In this document: in pieces, positions 1,345-23,440 of the stretch | How the letters are laid out: every line of letters begins with the position of its first letter | Position numbering within the stretch: position 1 is the first letter of the stretch | IMG/VR virus record: IMGVR_UViG_3300037294_000572 | Location: 1-23,440 of that record | Reading direction: 5' to 3' (one strand) | DNA length: 23,440 nucleotides | DNA from: a virus | Notes under the pieces: model-generated | The model's database searches: none | Told to the model about the DNA's origin: nothing | Seen by the model: only the letters and a program-made list of their open reading frames with translations | Position numbers and translations under genes: made by a program

Positions 1345-1471
1345 GGTTCTTGGCAACTTCCCTTTATGGGTGGGGCCGAGTGCGGAGGGCTTTATGCCCT
1401 GCCGGTTGCTAGCGTCCGGTCGACCAACCCGCTCGGTTCCGCCCACCATCTTTGGTCGATGGTTTGCGGGA
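1345..1471 (+). ncRNA. c4: C4-like antisense RNA controlling the antirepressor
   Basis: The sequence and its hairpin order match the C4 antisense RNA motif known from phages P1/P7 and many prophages, as I remember it. It has a CAACTTCCCTTTATGGG opening and an AGGGC-TTTAT-GCCCT hairpin (1386-1400). Next comes a CCGG-loop-CCGG hairpin (1402-1419), and last a long-range TCGACCAA/TTGGTCGA stem (1420-1427 with 1452-1459). In P1/P7, C4 blocks antirepressor translation by pairing with its leader. Here the loop segment GCTAGCGT (1408-1415) is exactly complementary to 1504-1511, codons 3-5 of the next gene. TTCCCTTT (1358-1365) can pair, with one bulged C, with the ribosome binding site AAAGGAA (1485-1491). 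Ends are approximate. Confidence 0.78.
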
Positions 1472-1497
1472 TTCCATTTCTTAGAAAGGAATTCGTT

Positions 1498-2559
1498 ATG
1501 CAAACGCTAGCCCAGTTTGATCCGCGCCAGCTTATTAACGCGATTGGTTCACAGCCCCGCACTACTTCCTTGAAGGTTGCCGAAGCCTTTGGCAAGCGTC
1601 ACGACAACGTGCTGCGCGCCTTCGCCACGATTGATTGCTCGGCCGAATTCAACGCCCTCAATTTTGAGGCCGTTGAATATCGTGATGGTAAAGGCGAAAT
1701 TCGCCCTGCTGTAGGGATGACTAAGGACGGCTTTATATTCCTGGTGATGGGCTTCACCGGGGCGAAGGCGGCACGGGTAAAAGAGGCGTACATAAACGCC
1801 TTTAACTGGATGGCCGAGCAGCTGGCCGGCGCGGCCCCCGCGCCGCAGCCTGCCCCCGCTGCGGCGCTGCCTGAGTTTGCGACGCTGCATTACGGTGCCC
1901 ATGTCTTGCCGGTGGCGCGGGTGGGTGCTGACTATTGGTTTGGCGCGACGGTACTGGCGCGCCTGCTGGGCTTTGAAAGTGCCAATCGCATTACCCGCCG
2001 CCAAGACCGCGCGTGGTTGACCCGCTTTGAAGTAGACGGCCGCTCGCTGCAAATGCTGGCACGCGCCTCGGTACTGGATGCCCTGCGCCGTGCGCAACCG
2101 TGCCGCGCTGCGCCTTTTCACGATTGGCTAACCGACACCTTGCCGGCGTTGTTCGCCAATACCCTTGGCCGGCATAAGCCCGCGCCTGCGCCTGCGCTGC
2201 CAGCGGCTAGCCCGTTACCCGTCACGCATGCCGCCCGCGCCTTAGCCCTGGACTACTTCGCCCAGTGCCGCGCCGCTGTTGCCGCCGCCGGTGGTGCCCG
2301 CCCGCAATGGGATCACGCCGCCGAAGAACGCATAGCCGATAACATGGCCGGGCTGTTGGTGGCTAACCGCCATTGGGTGGTGGCCTTCGGTGGCGACGGC
2401 GCGCCGTGCATGACCCCGGTGAAGCCCGGCGCGGTGCTGGTTGACCTGAGCGACAGCGGCCGACTGATTGAACTGCTACAAACCCACGTCCCGGCCGCTG
2501 CCTTGCCGCTGCTAATGGATGCCGGCCTAAAGCGCTTGGCCGGTTATGTGAAGGCGTGA
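1498..2559 (+). CDS. rha: Rha-family / BRO-like phage antirepressor (353 aa)
   Basis: Residues about 22-110 match the Rha phage regulatory domain, with TTSLKVAEAFGKRHDNVLR, then MTKDGFIFLVMGFTG and an AYINAFNWM end. An Ala/Pro linker follows. A BRO-N-like segment (about 125-215; LPVARVGADYWFGATVLARL) comes next, then a second Pro/Ala linker and a C-terminal domain of unknown fold (about 240-353). Such proteins commonly act as antirepressors that promote lytic growth. The ATG at 1498 has AAAGGAA 7 bases upstream. An upstream extension to 1339 would translate the C4 RNA and is rejected. Translation is probably repressed by the C4-like RNA just upstream. An intrinsic terminator follows. The Rha call is strong; the BRO call is moderate. 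Confidence 0.88.
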   Translation: MQTLAQFDPRQLINAIGSQPRTTSLKVAEAFGKRHDNVLRAFATIDCSAEFNALNFEAVEYRDGKGEIRPAVGMTKDGFIFLVMGFTGAKAARVKEAYINAFNWMAEQLAGAAPAPQPAPAAALPEFATLHYGAHVLPVARVGADYWFGATVLARLLGFESANRITRRQDRAWLTRFEVDGRSLQMLARASVLDALRRAQPCRAAPFHDWLTDTLPALFANTLGRHKPAPAPALPAASPLPVTHAARALALDYFAQCRAAVAAAGGARPQWDHAAEERIADNMAGLLVANRHWVVAFGGDGAPCMTPVKPGAVLVDLSDSGRLIELLQTHVPAAALPLLMDAGLKRLAGYVKA

Positions 2560-4075: not shown

Positions 4076-4098
4076 GTTATTTATTTAATTCGTCAATT
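4076..4098. promoter_or_regulatory. AT-rich site B between parA and the ParG-like gene
   Basis: GTTATTTATTTAATTC followed by GTCAATT overlaps the last codons of parA and lies 26-48 bp upstream of the ParG-like start. It shares 15 bases with site D (4811-4825, inverted) and 15 with site A (845-859, inverted). This is probably a second operator in the par locus; being inside a coding end does not exclude that. Confidence 0.45.
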
Positions 4099-4721
4099 TT
4101 AGCCATAACCGATTGAATCAATCGCTCGGCTTGTTCGCGCGGGCCTTTGTAGGGGGTTTCGATTATCGAAAGGCCCTGGTCATGCGCGCGGCTGTATGAG
4201 GTTTTTTGCGGCAGGTAGCCGTCGAGGGTTTTGAATGGGGTTTGTGCGAGGTAGCCCATTGCCTCTTCTAGTTCGCTTGCGCTGTCGCCAACGTGGTTAA
4301 GCGCGAAGACGATGCGGTTAGGGTCTATGCCATGCTTGCTTTGTAGGGCGTCTGCTAGCACGACAGCCGGCTCTAGGTCGTCGGTCGACAGCCCGGTCGG
4401 TATTACCATTAGGTCGCATGCTTTGGCCATTTCAGCGGTGGTCAAGCTGGCTTGTGGCGCGCCGTCGAATATCAGCACGTCATGCTCGCCGGCTTTGCTT
4501 AGCGCTTGGCTGACGCTGCTGAATGGTTCGACCGACACAAGCGGCAGGTGCTCGGCTTGGGTGCGGCGCTGCTGCCATTTGGTGGCGGTCATTTGGTTTA
4601 GGTCGAAGTCGGCAATCTTGGCTGACCAACCGTTTTGGGCGAAGGCGACAGCTAGGCCGCGCGCGATGGTGCTTTTGCCTGGGCCGCCTTTCTGCGAGCC
4701 TACGGCGATCAATAAAGCCAT
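4077..4721 (-). CDS. parA: ParA/ParF-type partition ATPase (214 aa)
   Basis: The deviant Walker A KGGPGKST is at residues 11-18, with the signature lysine K11. A Walker B-like VLIFDGAPQ sits near residue 82, and DLMVIPTGLSTDDLEP is typical of small ParA/ParF proteins. At 214 aa with no N-terminal DNA-binding domain, it is a type Ib ParA. It uses ATP-driven patterning on the nucleoid to segregate low-copy DNA. The start has AAGGGG about 10 bases upstream. It is followed by a ParG-like gene. A sigma70-type promoter and flanking AT-rich repeats lie upstream (4743-4835). The gene sits in the same leftward block as the CI-like repressor, so it is probably expressed in the lysogen. Confidence 0.93.
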   Translation of the reverse strand: MALLIAVGSQKGGPGKSTIARGLAVAFAQNGWSAKIADFDLNQMTATKWQQRRTQAEHLPLVSVEPFSSVSQALSKAGEHDVLIFDGAPQASLTTAEMAKACDLMVIPTGLSTDDLEPAVVLADALQSKHGIDPNRIVFALNHVGDSASELEEAMGYLAQTPFKTLDGYLPQKTSYSRAHDQGLSIIETPYKGPREQAERLIQSVMAKIDELNK

Positions 4722-16590: not shown

Positions 16591-17735
16591 TTTTCGACCA
16601 GATAGCGGGGGAGTCCCGCAGCATGGAAAACCCCGCGTACCCGCTTAGCGGTGAAGGGCTTAACGAGTTGATGGGCGCGCGGCAGGGGATATTGATTAAC
16701 CCGGATACAGCTCTAGGGCTGGCGGCCGTTTATTCCTGTATTTACTTGCTGGCCAGTTCAGTCGCCCAGCTGCCTATCAACGTCATGCGCCGGCATGAAG
16801 GCGAGATAACAGCGGGCACCGATCATGCCGCTTACTGGCTTTTGCACGACGAACCGAACGCCTGGCAAACGTCCTACAAGTGGCGCGAAACCAAGCAGGC
16901 CCATGTGTGCGGCCACGGCAACGGGTTTAGTCGCCTGGTGCGCTCGCCTCGGGGTGAGCTGCGGTCTATCGAGATGCACCGCCCGCAAGAAACCATGCTG
17001 ACTAAAAACGGCAATCGCTGGGTTTATGCGGCGCGCGACGAAGACGGCCACCCGATGGCTATTTCGCCTGAAGACATGGTGCATATTCGCGCCCTTGGTT
17101 CTGACGGCAAAATGGGCATAAGCCCTATTCGCCAGCACGCCGACACCATTGGCCTTGGCATGGCGACGGTGCGTTATGGGCGCGAGTTCTTTGAAGGTGG
17201 CGGCCGCCCTACGGGCCTAGTCACGATCAAGGGCGGCAGTCTTAACGACAACAGTTGGGTGCGTCTTAAAAGCGCATGGGCGACCGCTGTTGGCCGCCTG
17301 CGCCAATCTGAAAACAAAACACTGCTGCTACCGGCTGACCTTGATTACAAGGCTTTGACCATCGCACCAGAAGACGCGCAGTTTCTTGAAACCCGCAAGC
17401 TGACCCGTTCTGAAGTCGCCGGCCTGTTCAACGTGCCGGCGCACATGATTAACGATTTGGAAAAGGCCACTTTTTCCAATATCAGCGAGCAGGCTATTCA
17501 GTTCGTTCGGCACACGATGATGCCGTGGGTAAAGAACTGGGAAGAGGAACTAAACCGCCGGATATTCACCCGCGCCGAACGGGTGGCCGGTTACTACATA
17601 AAGTTCAACCTTGCCGGCCTGTTGCGCGGCACCCCGAAAGAGCGCGCCGAGTTTTACCACTACGCCATCACTGATGGCTGGATGGATCGAAACGAGGTTC
17701 GGCTTTTTGGGGTCGTCTCAGGAAACGGAATTTAA
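16587..17735 (+). CDS. Portal protein, HK97 family, 3' end replaced by transposon end
   Basis: It has the typical HK97-family portal pattern: LGLAAVYSCIYLLASSVAQL near the start, HAAYWLLHDEPN, GNGFSRLVRSPRGE, MVHIRALGSDGKMGISPI, ENKTLLLPADLDYKAL and TFSNISEQAIQFVRHTMMP. The start ATG 16587 overlaps the small membrane gene. The last phage codon is 374, ending at 17708 after DRNEVRLF. The next eight residues, GVVSGNGI, and the stop are encoded by the transposon's terminal repeat, which begins exactly at codon 375. The family usually continues beyond this with a further C-terminal stretch. The truncated product is probably non-functional, which would block virion assembly. Confidence 0.93.
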   Translation: MIFDQIAGESRSMENPAYPLSGEGLNELMGARQGILINPDTALGLAAVYSCIYLLASSVAQLPINVMRRHEGEITAGTDHAAYWLLHDEPNAWQTSYKWRETKQAHVCGHGNGFSRLVRSPRGELRSIEMHRPQETMLTKNGNRWVYAARDEDGHPMAISPEDMVHIRALGSDGKMGISPIRQHADTIGLGMATVRYGREFFEGGGRPTGLVTIKGGSLNDNSWVRLKSAWATAVGRLRQSENKTLLLPADLDYKALTIAPEDAQFLETRKLTRSEVAGLFNVPAHMINDLEKATFSNISEQAIQFVRHTMMPWVKNWEEELNRRIFTRAERVAGYYIKFNLAGLLRGTPKERAEFYHYAITDGWMDRNEVRLFGVVSGNGI

Positions 17736-17780
17736 AGCACGTTAAGCGCAGGTGGCCGCAGGAATCCAGCGGTACAGCGT
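17709..17780 (+). repeat. Outer left terminal repeat plus tnpR-tail relic (72 bp)
   Basis: The first 39 bp are the Tn3-type end (GGGGTCGTCTCAGGAAACGG at its tip). The remaining 33 bp repeat the coding end of tnpR. The whole is identical to 19006-19077. So this is a copied end of the transposon, not an independent terminal repeat. Confidence 0.92.
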
Positions 17781-17866
17781 AAGGCGCAACCTCGCTGCGC
17801 GTGTTTTTAGATGCGTGTGCCGAACCAAGTACTCTTACCAAGAAAATAAAATGAATCACAACAGCA

Positions 17867-17906
17867 TTGACCTGTAGACCCGAAGTGCCTATATTTGAGT
17901 CTACAG
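17867..17906 (+). promoter_or_regulatory. Promoter and operator of the xre-RES operon
   Basis: TTGACC (17867-17872), a 17-bp spacer and TATATT (17890-17895) form a strong promoter. The perfect inverted repeat CTGTAGAC (17872-17879) / GTCTACAG (17899-17906) flanks the spacer and -10. This is the expected layout for autorepression by the Xre antitoxin or the antitoxin-toxin complex. The remaining bases 17781-17866 hold no gene. Confidence 0.75.
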
Positions 17907-17927
17907 ACTTAACTAGAGGTTCCGGCC

Positions 17928-18332
17928 ATGACAGTCGCCGTCCAAGCACAAGGACTCACCAAAGACCAGTGCGTCACAGGTCTTCGCGCCGCTGTAGGCA
18001 TACTCGATAAGTGGCATGCATCGAGCGATCAAATATGTCGCATCCTGCGTATTTCCCGCAGTACACATACGCGAGCCAAGCAGCGCGATCCCGCTTGGTC
18101 TGTCGGGCTGGATTCTGACCAGATGCAACGCATCAGCTTCGTACTGAACATCCACGCGGCTCTACGCCTTGTGTTTGATAACCCAGAGAATGTTTATGGG
18201 TTCCCGGCGATGGCCAACGACAACGACTTCTTCAACGGTCGCCCACCCCTCGAAATAATGTCTCAGGGGGATATGATTTCCCTGTACGAGACGTTTCGCC
18301 GGATTGACGCGCTGCGAAGCGCGCAATGGTGA
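17928..18332 (+). CDS. Xre/ParS/MbcA-type antitoxin of a RES toxin (134 aa)
   Basis: The N-terminal half contains a helix-turn-helix (CRILRISRSTHTRAKQRDP). The C-terminal half, about residues 85-134, is the toxin-binding DUF2384/MbcA-ParS domain, with NPENVYGFPAMANDNDFFNG, RPPLEIMSQGD and a terminal helix. It neutralises the RES toxin and represses the operon. ATG 17928 has AGAGG 8 bases upstream. The stop overlaps the toxin start. The gene order antitoxin-toxin is standard. GC content is visibly lower than in the surrounding phage genes, consistent with separate origin. Confidence 0.9.
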   Translation: MTVAVQAQGLTKDQCVTGLRAAVGILDKWHASSDQICRILRISRSTHTRAKQRDPAWSVGLDSDQMQRISFVLNIHAALRLVFDNPENVYGFPAMANDNDFFNGRPPLEIMSQGDMISLYETFRRIDALRSAQW

Positions 18333-19042
18333 CGTTAAATCAACTGACTGAGCTGGCCGGTGAGCAGTTGCAGGCTTACCGGCTGATCAACTCGAAGTTT
18401 CCTCCTATTGCGCTGTTTGATGACGTTGCTAACGCAGACGAGTTTGATGTTCTGTACCAGATACAGGCTCTCACGAATCCCAGACTGCTAAATGGAGTCG
18501 GTCGTATTGAGTTGATACCGCGTCCTGAGATTCCCTTTGGCATCCCTGGGTGCTCTTACGCGACCGCTCCTTTCACCCACGTCAATCCAGCTGGATCGCG
18601 TTTCAGCGATGGTAGTTTCGGTGTGCTTTACTTAGCAGCCTCGATGGAAACCGCACTGGCTGAGGTGCAGCATCACCAAGATCTGTACTGGTCGAAAGTG
18701 CACAACCTCAACTACGAGCGGTTTGTTTTCCGGGGCCTATCCTGCTCCTTCGCTGAAATTGCGATGAAGGATGCAGCGTCTATCGCCATGACCGATCCAA
18801 TCTACAACCCAGATGATTACACCCACTCACATCGTCTCGGGAGAGAAATCAAGGATGCTGGCAGCCCAGGCCTCAGGTACAACTCCGTGCGCTCGCATGG
18901 AAGCTATTGTTGGGCACTGATGACCCCGAAATCTGTCACATCTATCGTTCAAACAGCCCATTACGAGATGATCTGGAACGGACGGATTACGAGCGTAAAC
19001 AAAATGGGGTCGTCTCAGGAAACGGAATTTAAAGCACGTTAA
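18326..19042 (+). CDS. RES-domain toxin, NAD-degrading type, C-terminus read into the transposon end (238 aa)
   Basis: The RES core residues are visible: R in GSRFSDGSFGVLYLA, E in METALAEVQHH, and S in YNSVRSHG. RES toxins of this family deplete NAD+ in the cell. The ATG at 18326 overlaps the antitoxin gene (a GTG at 18329 is an alternative). The last 11 residues ([11 protein letters not shown]) and the stop are encoded by the inner transposon end at 19006, so the native 3' end has been replaced. The RES core is intact, so the toxin may still work. It is convergent with tnpR, overlapping it by 4 bases. Confidence 0.88.
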   Translation: MVTLNQLTELAGEQLQAYRLINSKFPPIALFDDVANADEFDVLYQIQALTNPRLLNGVGRIELIPRPEIPFGIPGCSYATAPFTHVNPAGSRFSDGSFGVLYLAASMETALAEVQHHQDLYWSKVHNLNYERFVFRGLSCSFAEIAMKDAASIAMTDPIYNPDDYTHSHRLGREIKDAGSPGLRYNSVRSHGSYCWALMTPKSVTSIVQTAHYEMIWNGRITSVNKMGSSQETEFKAR

Positions 19043-19077
19043 GCGCAGGTGGCCGCAGGAATCCAGCGGTACAGCGT
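19006..19077 (+). repeat. Inner left terminal repeat with the tnpR 3' end
   Basis: A 39-bp end (19006-19044) identical to 17709-17747 and to the inverse of 23400-23438, plus 33 bp of tnpR. It is the presumed original left end of the transposon before the xre-RES unit was added. It is preceded by AAAAT. Confidence 0.93.
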
Positions 19078-19596
19078 TGGTACGGACACGCCGAGGTTCT
19101 TGGCCACGTCCCGTGGCGGCACGCCGTTGGCCAGCAGCTTCTTGGCTGACTCGATTTTGCTGTCGGTCATCAGGCGCTTGCGACCGCCCGTGCGGCCAAG
19201 CTGGCGTGCGACTGCCAATCCTGCTTGGGTGCGCTCCACCGTCAATTCTCGCTCCATCTCGGCCAGGCTGGCCATGACGTGGAAGAAGAACCGGCCTGAT
19301 GGCGTGCCGGTGTCGATGGCATCGGTCAGACTCTTGAACTGCACGCACTGCTTGTGCAATTCGCCAACCAGATCGACCAGGTTCTTGACGCTGCGGCCCA
19401 GGCGATCCAACTTCCACACAACCAAGGTATCGCCCTCGCGCAGCATCTCCAGGGCCTTGGCGAGTCCTGCCCGTTCAGCGCGGCTACCGCTCATTTTGTC
19501 ATCGAAAATCCTCTGACAGCCCGCCTTGGTTAAGGCGTCGATCTGAAGATCAAGGTTTTGCTCCGCTGTGGAGACGCGCGCATAGCCGATCAACAC
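19039..19596 (-). CDS. tnpR: Serine resolvase TnpR (185 aa)
   Basis: It has the N-terminal resolvase/invertase domain MLIGYARVSTAEQNLDLQ with the nucleophile Ser9, the conserved region VVWKLDRLGRS, and the E-helix EMERELTVERTQAGLAVAR. A C-terminal helix-turn-helix follows (RDVAKNLGVSVPTLYRWI). It resolves cointegrates at res. The GTG at 19596 is the start, 16 bases after hepT. The stop lies within the transposon end, so the last codons are duplicated at 17742-17780. It runs opposite to tnpA, with the toxin-antitoxin genes between it and the res site. Confidence 0.95.
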   Translation of the reverse strand: MLIGYARVSTAEQNLDLQIDALTKAGCQRIFDDKMSGSRAERAGLAKALEMLREGDTLVVWKLDRLGRSVKNLVDLVGELHKQCVQFKSLTDAIDTGTPSGRFFFHVMASLAEMERELTVERTQAGLAVARQLGRTGGRKRLMTDSKIESAKKLLANGVPPRDVAKNLGVSVPTLYRWIPAATCA

Positions 19597-19612
19597 GGGT
19601 TGTTTTCGTTGA

Positions 19613-19990
19613 TCATGGTTTCATCCCCTCGTCGTGTCGATATTCATCGTTGCGAACATTCGGCAGTAGTTGCAATAACTCCGGTAGGGCGGTCTGCACG
19701 GTGTCCCACACCACATCGAGGTTGATATCGAAGTAGCCGTGCGCGATGCGGTTGCGCATCCCTCGCATGCTGCGCCACGGCACGTCTGAGTGCCTCTCGG
19801 TGAACTCAGCGTAACCATCCATCACCTTCGTCGCCGCCTCACCCATGATGATGAGACTCATGATGACGGCCTGCTGGGTACGCTTGTCCGCAATGAAGTC
19901 GTCCTTATCCAAACCCTCAACGAAGCTGCACGCATCCGCTGCGGCCTGCTGCATATGTTCAAGGTAGTCAGGAAGGCGGTTTACGCTCAT
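19613..19990 (-). CDS. hepT: HepT-type HEPN toxin (125 aa)
   Basis: DUF86/HEPN protein with the diagnostic R-x4-H-x-Y motif R79-N-R-I-A-H84-G-Y86. The helical context SLIIMGEAATKVMDG and WRSMRGMRN is typical. HepT is an RNA-targeting toxin; its tyrosine is AMPylated by MntA, which inactivates it. The start overlaps the mntA stop by 4 bases. TA pairs between resolvase and transposase genes are a known feature of many Tn3 elements. Confidence 0.92.
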   Translation of the reverse strand: MSVNRLPDYLEHMQQAAADACSFVEGLDKDDFIADKRTQQAVIMSLIIMGEAATKVMDGYAEFTERHSDVPWRSMRGMRNRIAHGYFDINLDVVWDTVQTALPELLQLLPNVRNDEYRHDEGMKP

Positions 19991-20277
19991 ACCGGCTGCG
20001 CCTCCGCGAGTACCTGAGCGCGAAACGTCGGCGACAGATCCCCGGGGGTCAATAGATCGACATGGACGCCGAGCAAGGTCTCCAGTTCGACTTGCAAGCC
20101 ACCCAAATCGAACAGAGTTGCGCCGGGTAGCGCATCGACCAACAGATCAAGGTCGCTGCCGTCCTGATCGGTGCCGTGAAGAACCGATCCGAAGATACGC
20201 GGGTTCGCCGTGTGAAAACGGCCAGCTGCCTCGCGGACAGCGCTTCGTTTTAGGTCAAGAGCAATTGACGGTTTCAT
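19987..20277 (-). CDS. mntA: MntA-type minimal nucleotidyltransferase antitoxin (96 aa)
   Basis: The catalytic GSX10DXD motif is present: G30-S31 then D42-x-D44, in FGSVLHGTDQDGSDLDLLVD. The enzyme transfers AMP to the tyrosine of HepT and so acts as its antitoxin. Length is typical. It is the first gene of the leftward mntA-hepT-tnpR series. Its start lies at the edge of the probable res region, from which the operon is probably expressed and perhaps repressed by TnpR. Confidence 0.92.
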   Translation of the reverse strand: MKPSIALDLKRSAVREAAGRFHTANPRIFGSVLHGTDQDGSDLDLLVDALPGATLFDLGGLQVELETLLGVHVDLLTPGDLSPTFRAQVLAEAQPV

Positions 20278-20430
20278 GCGCGCATTTCCTTATCAAAACT
20301 CATTACAAAAACTGGTATTAAGAATAGCATTTCAAGAGCTATTTTTGAGAATAGCCGTGCCTTGATTCTGCGTGCTCGATTGGTGACGCACGAGGCTTAT
20401 CAATAACCTCCGTTTGTAAGAGGAGCAGCA
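20278..20430. other. Probable res site and divergent promoter region
   Basis: This 153-bp gap between mntA and tnpA is AT-rich and is the only space where a Tn3-type res site (about 120 bp) fits. It has repeated TATT/AATAGC elements (AGAATAGCATTTCAAGAGCT, and GAGAATAGC at 20347-20355). An imperfect palindrome, CGTGC...GCACG, lies around 20371-20392. TnpR should bind here and control tnpA and the leftward genes. Site boundaries cannot be fixed by eye. The tnpA ribosome site AGAGGAG is at 20420-20426. Confidence 0.6.
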
Positions 20431-23415
20431 ATGCCCCGTCGTTCCATATTGTCCGCCTCTGAGCGCGACTGCCTGCTGACTTTGCCTGACGCCCAGGATG
20501 AAATGATGCGGCACTACTCTTTCAGCGAATCAGATCTAGCCATCATCCGCCAACGGCGCGGGCCTGCGAACCGGCTGGGCTTTGCCGTGCAACTTTGCTA
20601 CATGCGCTACCCCGGCCTGATGCTCCGCGTGGGCGCCGAACCGTTTACGCCGCTGCTGCGTATGGTGGCGGCGCAACTCAAGGTCTCCGTCGAAACTTGG
20701 AACGACTACGGCCTACGTGAGCAAACCAGGCGCGAGCACCTAGTCGAGTTGCAGACGGTATTCAGATTTCAACCGTTCACGACGATGAACCACTATCGAT
20801 CAGCGGTACGTGGCCTAGATGAACTGGCATGGCAGACCGACAAGGGCATCGTGCTGGCGACCTCACTGGTGCAAAGCCTTCGTCAACAAAGCGTGCTGTT
20901 GCCAACGCTGGATGTTATCGAACGCATTTGTGCCGAAGCCGTCACCCGTGCCAATCGGCGCATTTATGCCGCGCTGACCGACGCACTGTCTGACGCCCAT
21001 CGCCTGCGCTTGGACGATCTGCTCAAATGCAAAGAGGCCAGTACGCTAACCTGCCTAGCGTGGCTTCGCCTGTCCCCGATCAGGCCAAACTCGCGGCACA
21101 TGCTGGAGCATATCGAGCGCCTCAAGGCTTGGTATTCGCTGGATCTGCCCGTCGGCATCGAACGGCGGGCTCACCAGAACCGGCTGCTCAAGATCGCCCG
21201 TGAGGGCGCCCAGATGACGCCCGCCGACCTAGCAAGGTTCGAGCCGCAGCGGCGCTATGCGACCCTTGTCGCGCTGGCCATGGAGGGCATGGCCACCGTC
21301 ACCGACGAGATCATTGACCTGCACGACCGTATCATCGGCAAGCTGTTCAACGCCGCCAAGAACAAGCATCAGCAGCAATTCCAAGCCTCCGGCAAGGCCA
21401 TCAACGACAAGGTGCGTCTGTACGGGTGCATCGGCCAAGCATTACTCGACGCCAAGCAAAGCGGCGGCGACCCCTTCGCGGCCATCGAATCAGTCATGTC
21501 TTGGGACGCGTTCACGGCCAGCGTGACGGAGGCGCAAAAACTTGCGCAGCCCGAGAGTTTTGACTTCCTGGCGCGTATCTCAGAAGGCTACGCCATGCTG
21601 CGGCGCTACGCGCCGCAGTTCCTGGACGTGCTCAAACTGCGGGCGGCACCCAGCGCCAAGGGCCTGCTTGACGCCATCGAGGTGCTGCGTGCGATGAACA
21701 CCGACAGCACCCGCAAGGTGCCGGCCGATGCGCCAACGGCGTTCGTCAAACCGCGCTGGGCCCGGCTGGTTCACACCAGCGATGGCCTCGACCGGCGTTA
21801 CTACGAGCTGTGCGCGTTGTCGGAGCTGAAGAACGCGCTGCGCTCAGGCGATGTCTGGGTGCAGGGCTCGCGCCAGTTCAAGGTTTTTGACGAATACCTG
21901 GTGCCCGCTGAGAAATTCACCAGCCTAAAGCTGGCCAGTCAATTGCCGCTGGCCGTGACCACCGACTGCGACCAGTATTTGCAGGAGCGCTTGTCCCTGC
22001 TTGAGCAGCAGTTGGCGACGGTCAACGCTCTAGCGGCAGCCAACGGCCTGCCAGACGCCACCATCACCACCGAGTCAGGCTTGAAGATCACGCCGCTGGA
22101 TGCCGTGCTGCCCGATACAGCACAAGCACTGATTGATCGGGCCGCGATGCTGCTACCGCGCGTCAAAATCACCGAAATGCTGATGGAGGTGGACGAGTGG
22201 ACTGGTTTCACCCGCCACTTCACACACCTCAAGACCGGGGACATCGCCAAGGACAAGACCTTGCTGCTCACGACGATCCTGGCCGATGGGATCAATCTTG
22301 GGCTCTCCAAGATGGCCGACTCATGTCCCGGCACAACCCATGCGAAGCTGTCGTGGCTACAGGCCTGGCACATCCGGGACGAGACCTACGGCGCGGCGCT
22401 GGCCGAGCTGGTCAACACGCAGCTGCGCCAACCCCTGGCAGCCCACTGGGGAGACGGCAGCACCTCGTCATCGGATGGGCAGCGCTTTCGCGCGGGAGGC
22501 CGGGCCCAGAGCACGGGTCACGTCAACCCCAAATACGGCACCGAGCCCGGGCGGATGTTCTACACGCACATCTCTGACCAGTACGCACCGTTCAGCATCA
22601 AACTGGTCAATGTCGGCGTGCGAGATTCGACCTACGTGCTCGACGGCCTGCTGTACCACGAGTCGGACTTGGCGGTCGAAGAGCACTACACCGACACGGC
22701 GGGCTTCACCGATCACGTCTTCGGCCTGATGCACCTGCTGGGCTTTCGCTTTGCGCCGAGAATCCGCGACCTTGGCGACACCAAGCTGTTCATCCCCAAG
22801 GGCGAAGCCACCTATGACGCGCTCAAGCCGATGATCAGCGGCGAGCGACTGAACGTCAAACAGATCCGCGACCACTGGGATGAAATCCTGCGGATGGCCA
22901 CCTCGATCAAGCAGGGCACGGTGACGGCTTCACTGATGCTCAGAAAGCTCGGCAGCTACCCGCGCCAGAACGGCCTGGCCGTCGCCCTGCGCGAACTCGG
23001 GCGCATCGAACGCACGTTGTTCATCCTGGACTGGCTGCAAAGCGTAGAGCTGCGCCGCCGTATTCATGCAGGGCTGAACAAGGGCGAAGCGCGTAATGCG
23101 CTGGCCCGCGCCGTGTTCTTCAACCGGCTGGGCGAAATTCGTGACCGTGGATTCGAGCAGCAACGCTACCGCGCCAGTGGCCTTAATCTTGTGACGGCGG
23201 CCATCGTGTTGTGGAACACGGTCTATCTGGAGCGGGCTGCGAACGCCCTGCGCGGGCACGCCAAAGGCATTGATGACGCATTGCTGCAGTACCTTTCGCC
23301 ACTGGGCTGGGAGCACATCAACCTGACGGGCGACTACCTGTGGCGCAGCAGCGCCAAGATCGGCGCGGGCAAGTTCAGGCCGCTGCGCCTACTCGCTGGG
23401 CTTAACGTGCTTTAA
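20431..23415 (+). CDS. tnpA: Tn3-family transposase TnpA (994 aa)
   Basis: It starts [20 protein letters not shown] and [20 protein letters not shown], the N-terminal end-binding region shared by Tn3/Tn21-type enzymes. The DDE triad is visible as D682 (SSSDGQRF), D755 ([13 protein letters not shown]) and E886 ([12 protein letters not shown]), at the spacings expected for the family. Full length. It copies the element by replicative transposition. The ATG has AGAGGAG 5-8 bases upstream. The stop lies inside the right terminal repeat, leaving no spare sequence. It is intact, so the element may be active. Confidence 0.97.
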
Positions 23416-23438
23416 ATTCCGTTTCCTGAGACGACCCC
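23400..23438 (-). repeat. Right terminal repeat of the transposon
   Basis: Exact inverse of 17709-17747 and 19006-19044 over 39 bp. It contains the tnpA stop. Only TA follows before the window ends. Confidence 0.95.
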
Positions 23439-23440
23439 TA

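Follow-up and report, generated by a model that had tools for sequence, protein, structure and literature searches.

A C4/IsrK-type RNA switch before a prophage Rha gene, with a possibly functional target site displaced into the early codons

Results and Discussion

The prophage RNA element upstream of an antirepressor-like Rha gene in IMG/VR record IMGVR_UViG_3300037294_000572 (positions 1 to 23,440, here called the window) genuinely belongs to the C4/IsrK system, a phage RNA switch that is already known. The one unusual point of the locus is that the recognition loop of its C4 RNA matches codons 3–5 of the gene and not the ribosome-binding site; this displaced, possibly functional target was seen in no other locus examined. 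The reading favored here, at a probability of roughly 0.7, is that the switch keeps the Rha gene off in the lysogen. Features are on the plus strand unless otherwise stated.

Identity of the RNA and of the gene behind it

An earlier note, made from the letters of the sequence, had proposed a C4-like RNA before an antirepressor-type gene and suggested the Rfam C4 covariance model as a check. Both parts are borne out: positions 1362–1450 match RF01695 with 56 bits, above the curated gathering cut-off of 45 (52.7 bits with our own covariance model), and the Rha domain of the gene is confirmed. The segment has a minimum free energy of -48.0 kcal/mol (z = -4.1), and the closing stem P1 and hairpins P2 and P3 are all present in the fold. 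By these sequence measures its membership in the C4 family is very nearly certain.

Segment names follow the P1 record, which marks a1, b1, c4, a2, b2, and icd. The fold and the family alignment place b' in the loop of hairpin P3 (UUGCUAGCGU, 1406–1415); a' (CGACCAACCC, 1421–1430) is in the same position as the a' of P1, as the single strand 3' of hairpin P3 in the alignment to the P1 record. The RNase P cut site was placed solely by alignment to P1, where the annotated c4 (48343–48419) begins 6 nt inside the Rfam match (48337–48422). This predicts a 5' end near 1368 and, by homology to the P1 type of about 77 nt, a mature C4 at about 1368–1447. The earlier note had paired a second segment, TTCCCTTT (1358–1365), with the ribosome site AAAGGAA. 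This segment lies 5' of the cut, and so outside the predicted mature RNA, and its pairing is at chance level: 123 of 1330 upstream 8-mers reach the same grade, and 67% of shuffled leaders equal it. Silencing by two segments survives in principle, with a' (1421–1430) and the b' loop as the pair and without TTCCCTTT.

The gene (1498–2559) encodes a Rha-domain protein of 353 aa (PF09669, 2.8e-27; TIGR02681, 2.2e-29; phrog_518, 6e-48). Anti-repressor PHROGs also match, more weakly, and Bro-N below threshold; “antirepressor” seems a reasonable name for the product, the activity itself being putative. Its ATG (1498) is 48 nt 3' of the C4 match with no gene between, so there is no icd-type leader gene. 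An AUG at the 5' end of the C4 (1366) is in frame with Rha and reads into it without a stop, adding 44 codons (1366–2559). Among 151 C4 loci, however, this frame is open in 118, hardly more than the other two (106 and 102); the upstream extension is therefore probably not coding, and an orf45-like peptide from this AUG was rejected.

No close relative of the locus was found. The best Rha match is about 60% identical over the N-terminal third, and IMG/VR searches with the exact loop or leader patterns yielded no closer relatives. At the DNA level there were no near matches in phages and no distant ones in E. coli genomes, and a plasmid search returned one short match.

An IsrK-type leader upstream of the C4 RNA

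Between 1228 and 1338 are several elements absent from the earlier note. A sigma-70-like promoter, TTGACA-17-TACAGT (1228–1256), was found by a pattern scan with 10 of 12 matches, as a consensus only; it ends about 6 nt 5' of the presumed start of an IsrK-type short RNA, comprising a leader and an intrinsic terminator (1263–1338; Rfam RF01394 isrK, 62.8 bits, gathering 50). The terminator, GCCGC-TGAAA-GCGGT and then a T run (1318–1338), is inside the isrK model. A c4-a1b1 element, the upstream target of C4, covers 1250–1302 (RF03163, 47.5 bits, gathering 46.7). In a fold of 1263–1530, the a1 site (1284–1294) forms 10 bp with a' (one bulge; score 20), and the b1 site (1302–1310) forms 8 bp with b', again with one bulge, without which the pairing is weak. 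From 5' to 3', the promoter comes first, followed by the leader with a1/b1, the terminator, the C4, and the gene. C4, c4-a1b1, and isrK, three separate families in Rfam, are thus joined in a single operon leader, here before Rha.

That a chance series of hairpins is present here, and no C4 RNA, is extremely improbable: the three Rfam matches stand in family order and with a promoter and a terminator, the fold has a z-score of -4.1, and the search turned up nothing in favor of the idea. At the level of sequence it stands refuted.

Left unconstrained, the fold of 1263–1530 contains a leader–C4 duplex of 22 bp (1284–1310 with 1408–1430), and is more stable than with the C4 structure enforced (-123.3 vs. 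-113.8 kcal/mol); this is the strongest interaction at the locus. Immediately after the C4 is the a2 site, UUGGUCGA (1452–1459), which pairs with 1420–1427 (score 20; duplex -11.9 kcal/mol).

From these elements we infer how the locus would be expressed, its RNA processed, and the gene repressed. The promoter would give a leader RNA mostly ending at 1338, the IsrK-like short RNA, and read-through transcripts would carry the C4 and the Rha gene. As an IsrK RNA, the short RNA would be expected to bind Hfq and to activate the read-through mRNA in trans. By homology, C4 would be excised from these by RNase P, and would block Rha translation through pairing of a' with a2 and b' with b2. The leader sites a1 and b1 can pair with the same a' and b', and might hold C4 off in trans, which would amount to activation; alternatively, they might lock the long transcript in cis.

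A rival possibility is that C4 mainly controls transcription past the terminator at 1338 through a1/b1, in the manner of the P4 CI RNA with seqA. The dominance of the 22-bp leader–C4 pairing would suit this, as would a subset of relatives with perfect b'–b1 pairing and no b2, and the P4 precedent has been discussed (PMC4825925). The a2 site, however, is present and strong in the window, and the larger effect measured in Gifsy-1 is on translation (PMC4825925); control mainly of transcription is accordingly considered unlikely.

Comparison with known systems

The C4 of P1 and P7 (RF01695) has the same fold and the same a' and b' segments, with a1/b1 upstream and a2 directly after the C4. In P1, though, there is a leader gene, icd, with b2 on its ribosome site, whereas in the window Rha follows directly and the b' match is in codons 3–5.

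A similar arrangement is that of isrK-orf45-anrP in Gifsy-1, which likewise has a promoter, an IsrK-type RNA with a terminator, a C4, and an antirepressor-like gene directly behind. For this locus, mutations support a silent structure A of the long transcript, which the short IsrK RNA activates in trans (Hershko-Shalev et al., PMC4825925); the 22-bp leader–C4 fold of the window agrees with that silent structure (PMC4825925). In NC_010392 (locus L385, 34131–34329, minus strand) the C4, isrK, and c4-a1b1 models match with 69, 79, and 48 bits, in the same order as in the window, and by these Rfam matches the published locus is a C4 operon. The terms “C4 RNA” and “C4 antisense” are absent from the text of PMC4825925, and the paper therefore appears not to connect C4 with IsrK; with this connection, findings from P1 and from Gifsy-1 can inform each other. 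There are differences from the window. In Gifsy-1 the b' loop is complementary to the ribosome site of anrP (ATCACCGGAGG), and orf45, which begins at an AUG at the 5' end of the C4, stops at the start of anrP, whereas the corresponding frame of the window enters Rha with no stop. Given the Gifsy-1-like arrangement and the presence of a C4 in Gifsy-1 itself, the P1/Gifsy-1 mechanism acting on Rha is the most likely one in the window.

The sar RNA of P22 is a different RNA, made from the strand opposite its target region. It resembles the window element in being an antisense control of antirepressor translation, on the ant mRNA (PMC12197685). The P4 CI RNA with seqA and seqC is also a processed leader RNA that pairs with flanking sites (PMC4825925), but acts by transcription termination, unlike the translation-blocking model for C4.

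C4 loci in other genomes

Sources for the C4 loci were Rha relatives (their IMG/VR records and genomes), class- and order-level genomes, and pattern searches; the loci were aligned with our own covariance model. Twenty-four of 369 class-level and 44 of 300 order-level genomes contained matches. The fold is well supported by covariation: among 86 distinct relatives 98.8% of cells are paired, with double changes in 22 of 26 pairs (0 of 500 shuffles). The first genes after the C4 (n = 97) include 13 Rha, nine Bro-N, and four AntA, with others of P22_AR or ORF6N type. The earlier note had regarded the antirepressor start itself, without an icd-like leader, as the distinctive target; there is indeed no gene between, but 13 of 97 first genes are Rha, and direct C4 control of the first gene is common in the family, hence nothing new.

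A clear gene start is present in 151 loci. In 101 of these, the pairing of b' with the ribosome site scores 20 or more, as compared to 2.6% of non-cognate combinations; the corresponding figures are 75 loci vs. 3.3% for b' with b1, and 95 loci vs. 13% for a' with a1. Covariation of b' with its target is thus established family-wide, and over the 187 loci the sequences put the P1 model to a clear test. A duplex of -8 kcal/mol or lower between b' and the ribosome site is found in 167 of the 187: it is usual, though outside the Rfam definition. The covariation between the loop and codons 3–5 that the earlier note had proposed to look for in homologues is not what the relatives have; in them, it is the ribosome-binding site with which the loop covaries. 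This includes the closest linked Rha relative with a C4 (L349, ~58% identical over the Rha domain), whose b2 is on the ribosome site, and nearly all judgeable IMG/VR relatives that share the a' of the window or have a CTAG loop. Among the 187, only the window combines a strong duplex at early codons with the lack of one at the ribosome site, and its codon 3–5 target is therefore unsupported by conservation. A second candidate for a codon-located b2, L343, was discarded as no clear parallel: its ribosome site pairs as well, with one bulge (-19.2 kcal/mol).

Some C4 loci pair with the leader alone, and not with the Shine-Dalgarno. In L260, L310, and L320 (the last two from one genome) the b' loops differ, each strongly matching its own upstream b1, and the same is true of L271, L275, L281, and L289 from another genome. 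In copies of this type the downstream ribosome-site region is near-identical and has no b' match; these C4s may act on their own leader only, for example by transcription termination. Three genomes (G512, G488, and G322) have 10–14 C4 matches each, with b' loops that differ where they were read, pointing to numerous prophage switches that reside together yet are insulated from one another.

The recognition loop and codons 3–5

As the earlier note observed, the loop segment GCTAGCGT (1408–1415) is the exact reverse complement of ACGCTAGC (1504–1511), which occupies codons 3–5 of the Rha gene; these are the only two copies of either in the 23.4 kb window. The predicted duplex has -13.8 kcal/mol. 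By several measures this is a 0.4–2% event by chance. Among trials with shuffled loops, 0.55% equal the match score 18–70 nt after the C4, 2.2% do so at any position up to 110 nt after it, and 0.5% give a Watson–Crick run of eight; only 0.42% of non-cognate C4 loops attain -13.8 kcal/mol in the early codons, and the window loop does so in none of 186 other targets. With the Shine-Dalgarno region of the window, b' reaches only -3.7 kcal/mol, a value equaled or bettered by 119 of 150 foreign loops.

This last comparison fits a different account, in which the locus is a normal C4 operon whose ribosome-site b2 has degenerated, as might follow an exchange of the 5' end of Rha, and in which the match to codons 3–5 is coincidence. 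C4 would then act only via a'–a2 and the leader a1/b1, the ribosome site being shut by its own hairpin. The leader-only loci described above would be a parallel; the Shine-Dalgarno is among the most buried of the 151 loci; and the core of the loop, GCTAGC, is a palindrome that occurs seven times in the window. An 8-bp complement is nevertheless improbable by chance, at the rates just given, and this one is less than 100 nt from the loop and within the ribosome footprint. Decay of b2 is a real but distinctly less probable alternative. Palindromic loops, which might allow loop–loop dimers, are not enriched in the C4 family (five observed, nine expected).

An initiating 30S subunit covers codons 3–5, and pairing there could still block initiation because it is inside the covered region. 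The displaced b2 candidate directly follows the ribosome-site hairpin, within the area of the initiating ribosome, and it is somewhat more probable than not that it is used as a C4 target. If it is functional, a switch of this kind can shift its target into codons and yet keep control.

A possible clamp on the ribosome-site hairpin

In a fold of 1451–1530, the Shine-Dalgarno (1486–1490) and the AUG (1498–1500) are buried in a hairpin at 1462–1505. The Shine-Dalgarno has an unpaired probability of 0.04, the second lowest of the 151 loci; over the full 80 nt, stability does not exceed that of shuffled sequences (z = -0.36). The a2 site is directly 5' of this hairpin and the codon 3–5 site directly 3', and one C4 molecule could therefore bridge its foot. 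Conceivably, a' and b' bind to either side and clamp the hairpin shut, instead of covering the Shine-Dalgarno. The suggestion is a tentative one. If correct, this would be a C4 variant with its target inside coding sequence, unique among the 187 C4 loci examined. A hairpin between a2 and b2 was also considered as a family trait and rejected (eight of 113 at p ≤ 0.05, about six expected), and the clamp idea is therefore specific to this locus.

Other features of the window

The same record encodes an integrase, a terminase, and a portal protein, as well as a ParA/MinD-type partition ATPase (4077–4721, minus strand). A Tn3-family transposon (17708–23439) follows the portal gene, with TnpA at 20431–23415 and a resolvase at 19039–19596 (minus strand); its matching pieces are ~99.9% identical to a plasmid of Pseudomonas sp. 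TMP25. It carries a HepT/nucleotidyltransferase pair (19613–20277, minus strand), and a RES/Xre-type pair (17928–19042) adjoins it.
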